From positions 1-64,000 of the forward strand of contig JAPLDP010000071.1 in NCBI GenBank assembly GCA_026391695.1: 64,000 nt of DNA, given 5' to 3'. This DNA is from Bacteroidota bacterium (GTDB lineage: Bacteria; Bacteroidota; Bacteroidia; Bacteroidales; JAGONC01). The translations under genes were made by a program, and so were the position numbers. The notes under the pieces are model-generated. The model did no database searches. It was not told the origin of the DNA and saw only the letters and a list, made by a program, of their open reading frames with translations. Positions 12,641-23,666 of the stretch are shown piece by piece. Within the stretch, counting starts at the first letter, position 1; each line of letters opens with the position of its first letter.

Positions 12641-14989
12641 TTATTTCAGCACGATAACCTTTTCAGTAGACAGAATCTCATTATTCAGGTTTTTGAACTG
12701 GATGAAATAGGTGCCATTGGGAAGATTATTGACATGCCAATTTAATTTTTGCTGCCACGGGCTGATTGGTATACTATCTAATGTTTTACCTTCATTATTA
12801 AATATCAGAATGGAGCCTTGCTGTAATTTTAAAAATTCTATGGTGATCTGGTTATACGTGGGATTGGGATAAATCTTCATGAAGCTCTTATCTGCAGGTT
12901 TTAACTCTATTGTCCCAACAGAATGATCCCAAACAGCCAGAGTATATTCGCCCATCTGTAGGTTGGGAACGTATAGGTATCCAATACTCCATATTCCCAT
13001 TTGTGTAAAATCTATGGATTGCCAGTCATGACCCGCATTTTCCCGGTATAATATAACAACTGAATCCTCGGAATTTACGATGAGGGTATTATCCAGGTAA
13101 TTGTTCCTGTTATACTGAAATATACCTGTAGCATTAATTCCTGGCTCACATATTCCTTCAATTTTCCAATACCGGTAGTCGGATAATTTTAGACCATTCA
13201 CCGGATTTTTAAGACTGTCAGGAGCAACCCAGTTGTGTGAAACTCTGATATAGGCAGAATCATTGATAGACACGACATTTAGTTTGAAAAAAGTATCGGA
13301 GAAATCGAACTCTCCAGAATTTTTTATAACCATCTCATCATCAGTTGTGGCATCACAAATTTCATCTTCAACATCAACCATAACGATCTTAGGTTCAAAA
13401 GGAACCGGGAAGACCTGATTTCCAGTTAGCCCCGAGAAATTCAGAGTGCCGGTAAATACGTTCCATTGGCTATCCATAAATGTAATATCGATCTTATTGG
13501 AATTGGCAAGAATGCATCCACCTTTTGATTTCTGCCGGGCATAAACCCTGACATCATAATTATTACCAACGGGTGATACAGTGAACGAATCAACTGAATA
13601 GTGAGGAAATCCGGGCGAAAAGACCCAGGCATCAAAAAAATCAGTGACATCCACACTGGTGTGGGAATTGATATAATCTCGCAAATCAAAGGACGACATA
13701 TAATTATACGCATATTCCTCCAGAAATCCTTTACTGACATTAAAAAACAGGCTATCTCCGAGATATCCTCGAAGGGTATGCAGGATGATTCCTCCTTTTT
13801 TATAGGCTGTCATACCATAAGTATATTCGGGTGGAATACCGTATAATGCAAAATATTGTCCGTCCCCTTGCGGAGTGTGGCAATACTGAAGGACTTCTTT
13901 GTGCATAGTGTTGACATTTTCAATATAGTCTTCATAGCTATATAGATCCTCCAGGTAAAACATCTCACAAAATGTTCCCCAACCTTCATTAAGCCACATA
14001 TCCTCTGCAGATGCACAGGTCACTTTATCACCGAACCACATATGGGAGATTTCATGTGCATAAAGGTACTCATAGGTCAGACCTCCATTGATACAACCAT
14101 ATGGATAGGCAATGTTTGCAGCGTGTTCCATAGCTCCAAGAGCTGTACTGACATATCCAACCTGTGGCCAGGGATAGGGGCCGAAATGTTCTTCGAAAAT
14201 AGCCAGAATTTCTTTAAGATTTATAAATGAACCATATACATGTATTGAATCGGAAGGTCTAACATAGAAATTGATGGGGATATTGGATCGGATTCCGTTA
14301 TAGGTATCGGTGATAAGATCGTAGTGACCAACTGCAACTGATGCCAGGTATGCAGGTATCGTGTTTCTCATCTGCCAGTGAAAGGTCTTGGTATTGTCAC
14401 CGTTAGTGGTGACAGACATCAGGATCCCACCGCAGACAGCAGTTTTATCTTCTTCAACGGTGATGTAATAATCATAAGTCGCCCGGTCATGAAAATCATC
14501 AATACAGGGGAACCAGGCTTTACCGAGGTTATGAGAAATTAATTCAAAGCCAACACCCAGGTTGAAACAATATTGCCCAGCCCAGTGAAAACCACCCCAT
14601 CCTTCATGAAAAGGGATTCCGTGATAGCGAATTCTGACTTTAATAGTATCTCCTGTATTTGCCGGTTCTGGTAGAGGGATGTTTATCAATGGATCAGAAT
14701 ATGTGTAGTTATTGACCTGAAAACCATTTACTATCACAGAATCAATAGCTAACTGAAGTAGTTCCAGCTGAATGTCGTTAATATTGTCATATTTTGGAAT
14801 GATTGAAACTTCGGTATACCCAATGAGGTTTTGTGAAGGTAAATCAACAATATTTAGATAGATTGAATAATGGACTGCATCGAGGGTGTCGCTGATAAGA
14901 ATTCGTGCAACATCGGGATTATTATTCTGTGGATGGCCTGATATTGCTATCCACAAGAATAGTATAAAGACAAAATTTTTGCGACGCAT
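12641..14989 (-). CDS. T9SS-sorted M1-family metallopeptidase
   Basis: 782 residues from the ATG at 14989; the frame extends upstream but this start gives a proper signal peptide (MRRKNFVFILFLWIAISG). M1 features: HEISHMWFGD near residues 309-318 with the third zinc ligand in LNEGWGTF, and GAMEH where the family usually has GAMEN, the exopeptidase motif. The last 80 residues, from KIYPNPTYNQITIEF to the basic end, form a type A T9SS sorting domain, so the enzyme is secreted or anchored to the surface. It presumably trims N-terminal residues from extracellular peptides. Divergent from tolC across a region rich in inverted repeats. Confidence 0.88.
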   Translation of the reverse strand: MRRKNFVFILFLWIAISGHPQNNNPDVARILISDTLDAVHYSIYLNIVDLPSQNLIGYTEVSIIPKYDNINDIQLELLQLAIDSVIVNGFQVNNYTYSDPLINIPLPEPANTGDTIKVRIRYHGIPFHEGWGGFHWAGQYCFNLGVGFELISHNLGKAWFPCIDDFHDRATYDYYITVEEDKTAVCGGILMSVTTNGDNTKTFHWQMRNTIPAYLASVAVGHYDLITDTYNGIRSNIPINFYVRPSDSIHVYGSFINLKEILAIFEEHFGPYPWPQVGYVSTALGAMEHAANIAYPYGCINGGLTYEYLYAHEISHMWFGDKVTCASAEDMWLNEGWGTFCEMFYLEDLYSYEDYIENVNTMHKEVLQYCHTPQGDGQYFALYGIPPEYTYGMTAYKKGGIILHTLRGYLGDSLFFNVSKGFLEEYAYNYMSSFDLRDYINSHTSVDVTDFFDAWVFSPGFPHYSVDSFTVSPVGNNYDVRVYARQKSKGGCILANSNKIDITFMDSQWNVFTGTLNFSGLTGNQVFPVPFEPKIVMVDVEDEICDATTDDEMVIKNSGEFDFSDTFFKLNVVSINDSAYIRVSHNWVAPDSLKNPVNGLKLSDYRYWKIEGICEPGINATGIFQYNRNNYLDNTLIVNSEDSVVILYRENAGHDWQSIDFTQMGIWSIGYLYVPNLQMGEYTLAVWDHSVGTIELKPADKSFMKIYPNPTYNQITIEFLKLQQGSILIFNNEGKTLDSIPISPWQQKLNWHVNNLPNGTYFIQFKNLNNEILSTEKVIVLK

Positions 14990-15055
14990 TTCAATTACCC
15001 TTCTATAATGATTCAATAAAGATAAAAAATAATGCGGTTGTATAAAACAAGTTAC

Positions 15056-15063
15056 TAACTTTG
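15056..15063 (+). promoter_or_regulatory. Candidate -7 box (TAACTTTG) toward tolC
   Basis: TAACTTTG matches the Bacteroidetes -7 consensus exactly. No good TTG lies at the right distance upstream (the nearest leaves 15 nt). If used, it would give the tolC transcript a leader of about 180 nt containing three inverted repeats. Confidence 0.3.
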
Positions 15064-15071
15064 GCATCCAG

Positions 15072-18949: not shown

Positions 18950-20374
18950 CTAAAAGTGATAGCTTATGCCCGTAAAGATCGAAAATGAATATGGATAGTA
19001 CTCAATAGAATGATCTCTTCTGATGGACTGGAGAGAATATTTGAATGTGGGCGAAAGATTCACTTTTAAATTTTTATTGACAGAATAATCTAATCCCATA
19101 CCTACCACGCTGTTGTATATCACCGGGTAAAAATCTTCCGATCTATCCAGATCGTAGCGTTGATCCTGGTATTGGAAATAGGCATGATTACCGATCATAA
19201 TCCCGGGGCTTAGCCCTCCTGAAAGATTCATTGACAGACGTTTATTTAATATCCGGTACTTCAGGATCAAAGGGATTTCAATGTACTCAAAATTCTGATA
19301 GATGTTTGAGTTAATGTACAGAAGGTTTTCGGCCGTGTCACGTACAGAAACTTCTTTAATCTGCGAAGGCATAGCAAGAGGATTGAAAGGAATGATACCG
19401 ACTGATGTGTTGGCATAATAAAGAACCTTATCATCAGGCAGCTGGAAAGCGACAATATCTTCATTCATCTGGCCTACTTTCGAATAGTATATTCCGGTTT
19501 GCAGGCTAATGTTATCTTTCAACAAATAACCGACATCTATTCCTCCGGCATATGAGTACATACCGCTTTCTACATTATCATAATAATTTTCGTCGGCTAT
19601 GACATTTGACGGTAGATCTTCACTTTTGATCTTGATGTTGCGATAAGAATATACTGGAGAGAATCCCCCGCCAATAATCCATTTTTCTCTTCCCTGGTTT
19701 TTGTCCTGGACTAAAGGATCTTCATACGTATAAATCTTCTGTTTTGGTTGTAGATTTTTGTTCTCTGATTTGATTTGTTCCCCGCCTATTTGTTCTTCTT
19801 TGATTATGATCGTTTCTTCAGACCGGATTTCACTTACAGGTATCTCAGGCTGATTAGCAATATCCGCTACCTGACCGGATGTCGCATTTTCAGAAGCGAC
19901 AGATGTTTTGCTATCTGCCATGGCATACTCCTGTTTGCTTTCTGAAAGCTTTTCGATTTCATCAGATGTAACAGATGGAATGGCATTATTTTTATCAGCT
20001 GGTGTTTTTAAGACCGAATGGTCGGTTTGATTTCCGACAATGGTTTTTTGATCTTTAGATATAACTGATTCATTAGAGTTATCCGATAAAGTGCTTACAG
20101 ATATTGGATTCTTTGTAACATCCTGCCGGGAAATAGCCATACCCTCATCAGATTTTTCATTTAAATTGAAAGTAGCGTAGAAATAGCCTGATATAAATGC
20201 GAAAATGAACACAGCTGCAACTGCTGCCCATCGGTAAAGGATAGCCCTTCTTTTCTTCCTGGCTATCATAATGTCGTCTTTCAATTTATCCCAGGCGTAA
20301 ACAGGTGGCGTTTCTTCATATCCTGACAGATTATCCCTGAAAAGCTGGTCAATATTTTTTTCATTAACCGACAT
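18950..20374 (-). CDS. Dma-like dual-membrane-spanning anti-sigma/beta-barrel protein
   Basis: 474 residues in four parts. Residues 1-40 are cytoplasmic (NIDQLFRDNLSGYEETPP..WDKL), a segment typical of proteins encoded next to Bacteroidetes sigma factors. A single inner-membrane helix is at about 45-67. A polar, low-complexity linker runs from 68 to about 230. An outer-membrane beta-barrel of amphipathic strands follows, ending in ISYHF. The protein could therefore span both membranes. This matches the dual-membrane anti-sigma (Dma) architecture described for Bacteroides, as I recall it. It lies 5 bp after an ECF sigma gene, its likely partner. No cleavable signal peptide is apparent. Confidence 0.75.
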   Translation of the reverse strand: MSVNEKNIDQLFRDNLSGYEETPPVYAWDKLKDDIMIARKKRRAILYRWAAVAAVFIFAFISGYFYATFNLNEKSDEGMAISRQDVTKNPISVSTLSDNSNESVISKDQKTIVGNQTDHSVLKTPADKNNAIPSVTSDEIEKLSESKQEYAMADSKTSVASENATSGQVADIANQPEIPVSEIRSEETIIIKEEQIGGEQIKSENKNLQPKQKIYTYEDPLVQDKNQGREKWIIGGGFSPVYSYRNIKIKSEDLPSNVIADENYYDNVESGMYSYAGGIDVGYLLKDNISLQTGIYYSKVGQMNEDIVAFQLPDDKVLYYANTSVGIIPFNPLAMPSQIKEVSVRDTAENLLYINSNIYQNFEYIEIPLILKYRILNKRLSMNLSGGLSPGIMIGNHAYFQYQDQRYDLDRSEDFYPVIYNSVVGMGLDYSVNKNLKVNLSPTFKYSLQSIRRDHSIEYYPYSFSIFTGISYHF

Positions 20375-20379
20375 GATCC

Positions 20380-20952
20380 TTATTTTACTTTTTTAGTAGA
20401 AGAATAAAAATATTTATTCACATTACGTTGCAATACAACTCTCGCTCTGGCGAGATTTGACTTGGATGTGCCCTCTGAAATACCCAGCTTGACACTGATC
20501 TCTTTATGTGTATACCCCTCCACAGCAAAGAGGTTAAAGACCAGACGGTATTTCGGAGACAGGTTCTGGATCATCTTCACCAGGTCGCCTGCAGAAATTG
20601 CACTGATGGTATCTTCAGCATAGAGTTCTTCTTCTTGATCATCAATCGCAGATAAAGGATGCAGGTGTTTTTCCCTGCGAAATTTTTCCAGCGATGTATT
20701 AATCATGATCTTTCGCATCCATCCTTCAAAAGAGCCTTTATACCTGAATGAAGAAATGTTGGTGAAGATTTTCATAAATCCTTCATGCATAAGGTCTTCC
20801 GCTTCAGTGCGGTCTTTGGAATAATAAAGACACACTCCAAACATCCCCCTGGAGTAAAGATTATATAATCTTTCCTGGTCTTTGATTTTACCGGCTTTAC
20901 AGCCTTTTATAATATCATCCAGTATCTCCGGGCTAGCCTCATTCATTTGCAT
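20380..20952 (-). CDS. ECF RNA polymerase sigma factor
   Basis: 190 residues from the ATG at 20952 (MQMNEASPE); the frame is open to 21111 but a -7 box at 20970-20977 makes the shorter start more likely. Region 2 is seen in ERLYNLYSRGMFGVCLYYSKDRTEAEDLMHEGFMKIF, described here only in outline; region 4 is the helix-turn-helix YTHKEISVKLGISEGTSKSNLARAR, likewise. It directs transcription of an envelope-related regulon. The barrel protein immediately downstream probably holds it inactive. Confidence 0.88.
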   Translation of the reverse strand: MQMNEASPEILDDIIKGCKAGKIKDQERLYNLYSRGMFGVCLYYSKDRTEAEDLMHEGFMKIFTNISSFRYKGSFEGWMRKIMINTSLEKFRREKHLHPLSAIDDQEEELYAEDTISAISAGDLVKMIQNLSPKYRLVFNLFAVEGYTHKEISVKLGISEGTSKSNLARARVVLQRNVNKYFYSSTKKVK

Positions 20953-20977: not shown

Positions 20978-21167
20978 GCGCTTTTCAGGCTTAAAAAAAG
21001 AACGTTTTTGAGTAGATGATAATAGACAGTTATTGGTTGCGTAATGTAACAGTTTTTTTTAACACAGGAATGTTGAGCCCGGCAAAATTTCCTTAAAAAT
21101 TTATTTACCAACGCAACTTTCAGAATAGAATAAACATCTTTAGGATAAGATTAGTTTACTGAAGGTT

Positions 21168-21308
21168 ATGAGAGGTATTGTATTACAAGTGAGAAGATAT
21201 TTTTACCTGCTGGTTAAGTCAAAAGCGATTTTTTTCATCCTGATAGTGGCATTATTTTTACTGACTATTGCCGTGAAGGATATCGTTGAAAAAACGCTTT
21301 TACAATAG
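21168..21308 (+). CDS. Small single-pass membrane protein
   Basis: A 46-residue frame (MRGIVLQVRRYFYLLVKSKA and onward) with a basic N-terminus and one strong hydrophobic helix at about 20-36, ending TLLQ. A purine-rich GAAGG lies just before the ATG. It is divergent from the sigma gene and fills the only gene-sized gap here. It is not long enough for standard gene calling. Charge bias suggests N-in, C-out topology. Function unknown; it could be a chance frame. Confidence 0.45.
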   Translation: MRGIVLQVRRYFYLLVKSKAIFFILIVALFLLTIAVKDIVEKTLLQ

Positions 21309-21501: not shown

Positions 21502-22203
21502 CTATGTGTTGCAAATCAGTTTAAATCCCACTCCGTGTACATTGATTAATTCAATCCGGGGATCATCTTTCAAATACTTACGTAGTTTGGCGATGTAAAC
21601 ATCCATACTCCTGGCGTTGAAGTAACTGTCGTCGAACCAAATTTTGGTCAGAGCATAGCGGCGGTCGAGGGTATCATTTAAATTTTCGCAGAGAAGCTTT
21701 AACAGGTCAGCTTCCTTGGATGTCAGTTTTTGCTCTTTGTTTCTGAAGTGAAGCATCTGGTGGTTATAGTCAAACGTATAACCGCCAATGATAAATGTAT
21801 TATCTCCGGGCATGTTTTTCTTTCCATCCTTCACGCGACGGATAATGGCATTCATCCGAGCCAGGAGTTCCTCCATACTGAAGGGCTTGGTAAGGTAATC
21901 GTCAGCGCCGATTTCAAAGCCTTTGAGCTTATCTTCCGGTAATGATTTTGCCGTGAGGAACAGGATAGGGATTTTTTTATCGATAACTCTGATCTCCCTG
22001 GCGAGGGTAAAGCCATCCTTGATGGGCATCATCACATCGATGATGCAAAAGTTAAAATCTTCCTTCTTATACATATTAAAGGCTTCTTCGCCATTGATAG
22101 ACAGATGGGTAGGATACCCTTTGGCTTCGAGATAAGCTTTGAGAATATTCCCTAGATTACGGTCATCTTCAGCCAGTAAAACTTTGATATTCTGTTTTGT
22201 CAT
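21502..22203 (-). CDS. OmpR-family response regulator, RprY-like
   Basis: 233 residues. Receiver domain 1-120: acidic pocket AEDD near 11-14, phospho-acceptor D56 in IIDVMMP, conserved Lys in LTAKS and the GADDYLTKPF loop. A winged-helix DNA-binding domain at about 135-230 includes LTSKEADLLKLL and SMDVYIAKLRKYL. It closely resembles RprY of Bacteroides by memory of that family. It is encoded after, and 35 bp from, its kinase gene on the same strand. Confidence 0.9.
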   Translation of the reverse strand: MTKQNIKVLLAEDDRNLGNILKAYLEAKGYPTHLSINGEEAFNMYKKEDFNFCIIDVMMPIKDGFTLAREIRVIDKKIPILFLTAKSLPEDKLKGFEIGADDYLTKPFSMEELLARMNAIIRRVKDGKKNMPGDNTFIIGGYTFDYNHQMLHFRNKEQKLTSKEADLLKLLCENLNDTLDRRYALTKIWFDDSYFNARSMDVYIAKLRKYLKDDPRIELINVHGVGFKLICNT

Positions 22204-22238
22204 AAGATTACTTTTGAGTCATTTTCTTGATTCAGAGG

Positions 22239-23666
22239 TCATCCTTCAGGGATAAAGAACGTAAATTTACTTCCTTTATTGAGTTCGCTATCGATGCTTA
22301 TCCGTCCACCGTGCTTGTCGATGATGGCTTTAACATAGCTCAGACCAAGACCGAAGCCTTTGAAATTATGAACATCGCCTGTAGGAACACGATAGAGTTT
22401 ATCAAAGATCTTTTTTTGGTCGGCTTTGTTAATGCCAATACCGTTATCTTTCACTGATATCTCCACACCGCCCGGCACATTTTGGGTGGAGACAACAATG
22501 ACTGGTTTCTTGGGTGAATACTTATTGGCATTTTCGAGTAAATTATAGATGACATTAGTAAGGTGCATCCGGTCGGCATTGATCACCGGTAATACTGCAT
22601 GAAATTCCTTTATGATAATACCGTCGTTGATCTCTACTTGTATGCCGATATTTTTGACCACCTCCTCGATGATCTCATGAATGTTTACCTGTTCTTTTTT
22701 AAGTTTTAACTTACCCTTTTCCAATACAGCTGTCTGCAGGATTTTTTCTGCCATGGTTCCAAGACGTCTGTTCTCGTCGCTGATTATCCGGATATAATTG
22801 TTAGAAACACCCTCAATTTTGTTAATGTCCTTATCCATGAGTGCTTCGCATGCCAATGCTATAGTAGACACAGGCGTCTTGAATTCATGGGTCATATTAT
22901 TAATAAAATCGGTTTTCATTTCTGTGAGACGTTTTTGTTTAATGACTGAATTGAGTGACAGGAAGAAAGAGATGATGATAACCAGTATGAGAAGGATTGA
23001 AATGATGAGCATACTGGCCATCTGGGTGACAAGAAACGTTTTCTCATGAGGGAAATAAATCATCAGGTAGTCGGGCTGGGAAAACATATCACTTGGGAAG
23101 AGTGTATATCCAAAACTTTTGTCTATCAACTCCTCGCCATAATTCCCTGTATTACTGAGCACTAACCTGTTTTTTGAAGAACTGTAAATGCCAAATTCGT
23201 ATTCTGTGTTTATTCCTTTAGTTGATAACTGATTGGATATCAAAGAGTCAAGAACCTTTATATCGATCCTTTTCTCAATATCCATAAAATGTCGGAAAGC
23301 AAACATGTCTTCCATAACATCATTAAAAAGAGAAGATTTCTTTTGAAGAAGTGCGTTGACACGTTCGTCGGTTGAGCCATTTCTGAAGGATTCAATCTCT
23401 TGATAATAAAAAAGGTTAAGAGAGTCAATTTCGTGGAAAATATCTTTGCTGCTTTCGAAGAATTTAGATTTCTGTCGGATCTGGTTAGCTATCTCTATTT
23501 TTTCGAGCTTATCTACGACATTTGACATTGCTTCACTGACACTGCGTTTAAAAGTTGCCTGCTTAACCAGAATTGCATTCCTGATCCAGTAGACCTGAAT
23601 GCTGACCAATCCAACCAGGGCGAGGGTAATAATTATCCCGATAAGGATGATGTAATGCTTTTTCAT
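22239..23666 (-). CDS. Sensor histidine kinase, RprX-like
   Basis: 475 residues. Transmembrane helices at about 7-29 and 217-238 enclose a periplasmic sensor of about 185 residues that I cannot match to a known fold. The dimerisation domain carries the phosphorylated His in MTHEFKTPVSTIALACEAL. The HATPase domain has the N box NVIYNLLENANKYS, G1 VKDNGIGI and G2 GFGLGLSYVKAI. It phosphorylates the response regulator encoded just downstream. There is no HAMP domain, as in RprX-type kinases. Confidence 0.9.
   Translation of the reverse strand: MKKHYIILIGIIITLALVGLVSIQVYWIRNAILVKQATFKRSVSEAMSNVVDKLEKIEIANQIRQKSKFFESSKDIFHEIDSLNLFYYQEIESFRNGSTDERVNALLQKKSSLFNDVMEDMFAFRHFMDIEKRIDIKVLDSLISNQLSTKGINTEYEFGIYSSSKNRLVLSNTGNYGEELIDKSFGYTLFPSDMFSQPDYLMIYFPHEKTFLVTQMASMLIISILLILVIIISFFLSLNSVIKQKRLTEMKTDFINNMTHEFKTPVSTIALACEALMDKDINKIEGVSNNYIRIISDENRRLGTMAEKILQTAVLEKGKLKLKKEQVNIHEIIEEVVKNIGIQVEINDGIIIKEFHAVLPVINADRMHLTNVIYNLLENANKYSPKKPVIVVSTQNVPGGVEISVKDNGIGINKADQKKIFDKLYRVPTGDVHNFKGFGLGLSYVKAIIDKHGGRISIDSELNKGSKFTFFIPEG

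Follow-up and report, generated by a model that had tools for sequence, protein, structure and literature searches.

Described dual-membrane anti-sigma factors

The founding paper on the dual-membrane anti-sigma (Dma) factors is said to be Pardue 2024. Here we describe a gene pair that appears to belong to this type, an extracytoplasmic function (ECF) sigma factor gene and the gene directly behind it, in a 64,000-nucleotide stretch of Bacteroidota DNA (contig JAPLDP010000071.1; hereafter the window). Three dual-membrane anti-sigma factors, Dma1-3, are known from B. thetaiotaomicron (PMC13088901). Dma1, Dma2 and the Reo protein of Phocaeicola vulgatus have the architecture considered here and repress their sigma factors (PMC13088901; PMC9308784, PMC13114119). 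Two antibacterial toxins, BcpT and the BamA inhibitor bacteroidetocin A, induce the Reo pair, which answers toxins that perturb the envelope; the responses of the known relatives are to antibacterial toxins and oxygen, and NigD is an experimentally established EcfO/Reo target (PMC9308784, PMC13114119). Regulated proteolysis of anti-sigma factors has been established for FoxR (PMC11637429). What the Dma/Reo proteins sense and how the sigma factor is freed are questions on which the family described below bears.

Judged by described architecture and not by sequence, the window pair would be a further member of the Dma/Reo type, because its sigma gene lies directly upstream, a single transmembrane (TM) segment follows the N-terminal domain and the barrel is predicted on the same chain; the sequence-only reading had proposed such a fit to the dual-membrane type, and our analysis supports it. 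The likeness to Dma1-Das1 and Dma2-Das2 includes their being found solely in Bacteroidota (PMC13088901), whereas the regulon in the window's lineage is promoter-predicted and takes in a membrane protein of 46 aa together with a lipoprotein of 157 aa. With the EcfO-Reo system of P. vulgatus and Bacteroides fragilis the pair shares the upstream sigma gene, the single inner TM segment, the C-terminal barrel and the predicted role in the envelope-stress response, and NigD, a target there, is encoded divergently in one homologous locus (L109) too; the window differs in having no adjacent nigD (PMC9308784, PMC13114119). In FecA-FecR and FoxA-FoxR an outer-membrane barrel also signals to an inner-membrane anti-sigma factor, an arrangement that resembles the split three-gene form described below, but there a TonB-dependent receptor and separate proteins are used (PMC11637429), in contrast to the 8-stranded barrel fused to the anti-sigma domain in the window.

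The sigma factor, its predicted partner and their recurrence

The pair and the parts of the partner protein are as follows (aa, amino acids; pLDDT, predicted local distance difference test).

20380..20952, minus strand: ECF sigma factor gene, start ATG at 20952 or 20946; Pfam Sigma70_r2/r4 and TIGR02937
18950..20374, minus strand: predicted Dma/Reo-type anti-sigma factor, 474 aa; open reading frame, Pfam, family loci and AlphaFold2
20246..20374, minus strand: predicted cytoplasmic anti-sigma-like domain, aa 1-43, IDxLFxxxLxxxxxxPPxxxWxxI; conserved in 69 homologues, with a profile match to short anti-sigma proteins
20177..20245, minus strand: predicted inner-membrane helix, about aa 44-66; hydropathy in 68/69 homologues, K/R bias, AlphaFold2 helix 27-72
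19682..20158, minus strand: predicted periplasmic linker, polar and disordered, aa 73-231 (159 aa); pLDDT about 41-55 and no secondary structure in AlphaFold2
18953..19681, minus strand: predicted 8-stranded outer-membrane beta-barrel, aa 232-474, its long loop spanning about 305-356; PF13568, AlphaFold2, Foldseek and VIA-align

The span of the pair, 18950-20952, was confirmed by the open reading frames and by the Sigma70_r2/r4 matches. The sigma frame ends with its stop at 20380, both Sigma70 regions are clear in Pfam, and its identity to 13 family members is 44-68%; among the NCBIfam matches listed, only the superfamily model TIGR02937 scored above its cut-off. A longer TTG start at 21111, present in the list of open reading frames, was rejected as not credible since the ECF promoter described below falls within that extension. 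The 474-aa partner follows downstream on the same strand after a gap of 5 nt.

AlphaFold2, run with 68 homologues from public genomes, modelled a short helix, a long helix at 27-72, disorder at about 73-231 and barrel strands at 232-473 (mean pLDDT 73.8; barrel mostly 82-98). PF13568, the sole Pfam match in the protein, covers aa 272-449 (E 1.2e-9). Foldseek matched the barrel to OmpA (E 1.9e-8), and VIA-align aligned it with the barrels of OprF (Z 19.1, root-mean-square deviation 2.1 over 131) and OmpA (Z 17.4, 2.6 over 132); no FecR domain was matched by Pfam in the 474-aa protein, and the barrel is OmpA-like and not a TonB-dependent receptor. Across 69 family members, 40-44 residues precede the helix, and in 68 of them a single hydrophobic segment lies near aa 44-66, with lysine and arginine richer ahead of it than behind it (again 68/69). 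The linker measures 117-219 aa (median 146, counted over aa 67-232), with no clear second hydrophobic segment in these proteins (median peak 0.49). Despite low overall identity the barrel and its C-terminal aromatic are conserved, an aromatic residue standing within the last two positions in 67/69. The layout that the sequence-only reading had given this chain, with an anti-sigma-like N-terminus, one inner-membrane helix, a polar linker of about 160 residues and an outer-membrane barrel, thus agrees with the predicted structure and the family alignment.

The arrangement recurs across Bacteroidota and goes beyond chance, since the partner adjoins the sigma gene in 73/80 loci picked by sigma alone. 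These loci were gathered with the sigma alignment as the only query; the same search with the anti-sigma protein gave no matches. In the 73 loci the gene right behind sigma matched both the N-terminal and the barrel profiles (E <0.01), and the other seven comprise five that end at a contig edge and two (L131, L132) that lack such a gene. The family profile was matched in 139 of 395 genomes sampled across the phylum. What these searches returned came from other Bacteroidota, with no named Dma or Reo sequence among it. The pair stands beside tsaB in the four relatives from the window's family, one of which has a gene in between. The window's own genome holds a second sigma/Dma-like pair (G000:C82:20209-21621, L041), followed by a gene for a PKD-like protein; no GCAACC promoter element was found at this second pair.

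The N-terminal domain also occurs on barrel-less proteins of 225-317 aa. Among 30 loci retrieved with a profile of this short form, 28 have a sigma gene directly upstream, and a gene matching a separate-barrel profile follows 27/27 short anti-sigma proteins, some of the loci in both counts having been in the training alignments. The separate barrels generally begin with a signal-peptide-like start, and three of them passed the PF13568 cut-off. Profile comparison matched the short proteins to aa 1-75 of the window protein (98.7%, E 1.8e-16), and the separate barrels more weakly to its C-terminus (81%, E 1.2e-5). Independent support for the link that the sequence-only reading had proposed comes from the split form, where the two halves still share an operon with sigma. 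These comparisons suggest that two neighbouring genes of an operon for cell-surface signalling are fused in the window protein, or else that the split form is its fission. Split three-gene operons (sigma, short one-TM anti-sigma, separate barrel) were seen at L239-L247, L249-L271 and L274-L277; by separating the barrel from the anti-sigma half they form a natural experiment in the passage of a signal across two membranes. Other members carry tandem anti-sigma domains ahead of the helix, six in L006:868-2874, four in L099:4558-6285 and four in L108:2989-4779, and such chains could hold several sigma molecules each.

Promoter element and predicted regulon

An element, ACGCAACC-N16-CATCT, was spotted by eye ahead of sigma in the first set of loci, several of which have a divergent second copy. 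On a separately retrieved set, of which at least two loci (L087, L104) overlap the first, GCAACC-N16-CATCT was found in the forward direction in 68/78 loci and divergently in 32/78, compared with 0/78 for a reversed control pattern. The corresponding features of the window are listed here.

21014..21040, minus strand: GCAACC-N16-CATCT, the predicted ECF promoter for the sigma-dma operon, 26.3 bits
21113..21139, plus strand: predicted divergent ECF promoter, GCAACT-N16-CATCT, 25.2 bits
20970..20977, minus strand: promoter box of the housekeeping type, TACCTTTG (TAnnTTTG), lying past the ECF promoter and ahead of the sigma start
21168..21308, plus strand: gene for a single-TM protein of 46 aa, preceded by the divergent promoter and predicted to belong to the regulon; overlooked and easily missed in annotation

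A weight matrix run over the whole window returned exactly two sites above 8 bits, the sigma promoter and the divergent promoter. The box between promoter and gene fits TAnnTTTG, which we take to be the Bacteroidota housekeeping-type consensus, and was present at 29/68 loci compared with 4.1 expected from shuffles. The sigma-operon promoter is probably autoregulatory. The element itself offers both a ready-made reporter and a predicted regulon.

Homologues of the 46-aa protein, of 46-57 aa, occupy the same position in four relatives of the window's family, and their genes differ at codon positions 1/2/3 in the pattern 243/136/457, so that 21168-21308 behaves like a protein-coding gene. Similar small membrane proteins are found in L088, L089, L090 and L093. 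Elsewhere in the window's genome the exact promoter pattern has 19 further matches, mostly intragenic, among which only one is a strong weight-matrix site (29.9 bits, L048); it lies ahead of a gene for a 157-aa lipoprotein. In L126 a homologue of this lipoprotein (38% identity, E 9e-36) is encoded divergently from sigma with the same element upstream. This regulon is a minimum, because sites with core mismatches would escape the exact pattern; the looser GCAACN{16,18}CATCW gave far too many matches for interpretation. Genes for PagL-type lipid A deacylases occur near the element in L090:2243-3376, behind the small membrane protein gene, and in L203:1545-2684; the latter stands behind a degenerate match and was rejected as a target, no site exceeding 5 bits.

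Related genomes suggest what the system controls, often a protease inhibitor. Among the 36 longer divergent genes of the homologous loci, Pfam identified 25 serpins, one NigD (L109) and one PagL. The divergent promoter is present in 20/25 serpin loci compared with 12/53 others (Fisher p 3.5e-6, a value overstated because the loci are related), and two more serpins lying off the sigma locus (L237, L238; G011) carry the element upstream. Divergent serpins, many with lipoprotein-like starts, were seen in L101, L102, L105, L106, L116-L119, L121-L123 and L134, with further loci at L137-L140, L145, L151, L158, L159 and others, most sharing sigma's promoter element. The window's genome yielded a single serpin (G000:C73), which was rejected as a target, as it has no element upstream. 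NigD being an established EcfO-Reo target (PMC13114119), the NigD locus points to a type of regulon common to these loci and the Reo system; the available portions of the two Reo papers contain no mention that we found of serpin or microprotein targets (PMC9308784, PMC13114119). A literature search for serpins together with ECF sigma factors gave nothing relevant. For the promoter element, the serpin and other divergent targets, the split form and the tandem form, no report was found in the literature searched, which did not cover the founding Dma paper.

Mechanism, possible triggers and neighbouring genes

We consider it highly probable that the pair is a Dma/Reo-type envelope-stress switch, which is the best explanation of an architecture, operon, promoter element and conservation read from sequence or structure prediction. 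At rest, basal transcription from the housekeeping-type promoter would yield both proteins, the anti-sigma N-terminus would keep the ECF sigma at the inner membrane, and the same chain would span the periplasm in the form of a disordered tether before ending as the 8-stranded barrel in the outer membrane. Disturbance of the barrel by surface attack, a ligand, failed folding or proteolysis would alter or cut the chain and release sigma, which would then read GCAACC-N16-CATCT at its own operon (positive autoregulation), at the divergent 46-aa membrane protein gene and at the distant 157-aa lipoprotein gene. We infer the release mechanism, the signal and the use of this promoter by sigma. Several points weigh against the switch: the likeness to Dma1/2/3 and Reo is drawn from descriptions and not from sequences, sigma is placed at the level of the superfamily (TIGR02937), above that of the group (ECF21 for the Dma/Reo type), the domain at aa 1-43 has no Pfam or NCBIfam match, the linker is modelled with low confidence and allows no placement, and sigma binding and the two-membrane location are what we infer.

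The leading alternatives concern the trigger. It may be, with a likelihood somewhat below even, that the barrel senses its own assembly, such that a failure of the beta-barrel assembly machinery (BAM) or of outer-membrane lipids leaves an unfolded periplasmic barrel that changes or exposes the chain and frees sigma without any surface ligand. Induction of the Reo pair by BcpT and by the BamA inhibitor bacteroidetocin A (PMC9308784, PMC13114119) and the retention of barrel and C-terminal aromatic at low overall identity are in accordance with this, although the long extracellular loop at about 305-356 would have no obvious need. Proteolysis as the signal, a variant in which external or periplasmic proteases cut the exposed loop or the linker, sigma is freed and the response includes protease inhibitors in a negative feedback loop, is in our view unlikely. 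The serpin link does propose proteolysis as a concrete signal: serpins predominate among the long divergent genes, the divergent promoter is concentrated at their loci, the two distant serpins carry the element, the linker is long and disordered, and FoxR provides a precedent (PMC11637429). However, the only serpin of the window's genome lacks the element, the divergent gene in the window's lineage encodes a 46-aa membrane protein, and the known relatives answer antibacterial toxins and oxygen (PMC9308784, PMC13114119). A family-wide reading, which we regard as doubtful, would have the sensor guard the outer membrane against proteolytic or similar attack and use a shared promoter for sigma and a lineage-variable divergent effector (serpin, NigD, small membrane protein or lipoprotein), the single chain being a fused three-gene operon and the tandem chains possibly holding several sigmas.

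If the hydrophobic segment were instead an ordinary export signal, the mature protein would reside in the outer membrane only, unlinked to sigma. A small-x-small pattern just past the segment in 53/69 members would suit cleavage, although this pattern is uninformative. A cleaved signal peptide, which the sequence-only reading had named as grounds for abandoning its proposal, fits poorly, because conservation extends to the roughly 43 residues ahead of the segment (IDxLFxxxL...PPxxxWxxI); moreover, the split operons put the same N-terminus on a barrel-less protein and give the separate barrel a signal-peptide-like start of its own, and the adjacency of partner and sigma also argues against an unlinked protein. 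We therefore regard simple export as very improbable.

Genes for an OmpR-type response regulator and a histidine kinase adjoin the sigma locus (21502-23666, minus strand), and an OmpR-type regulator stands beside sigma in three relatives too (L003, L004, L005). At 12641-15067 (minus strand) the window encodes a large protein that by eye resembles an aminopeptidase of the M1 type carrying a sorting tail for type IX secretion.
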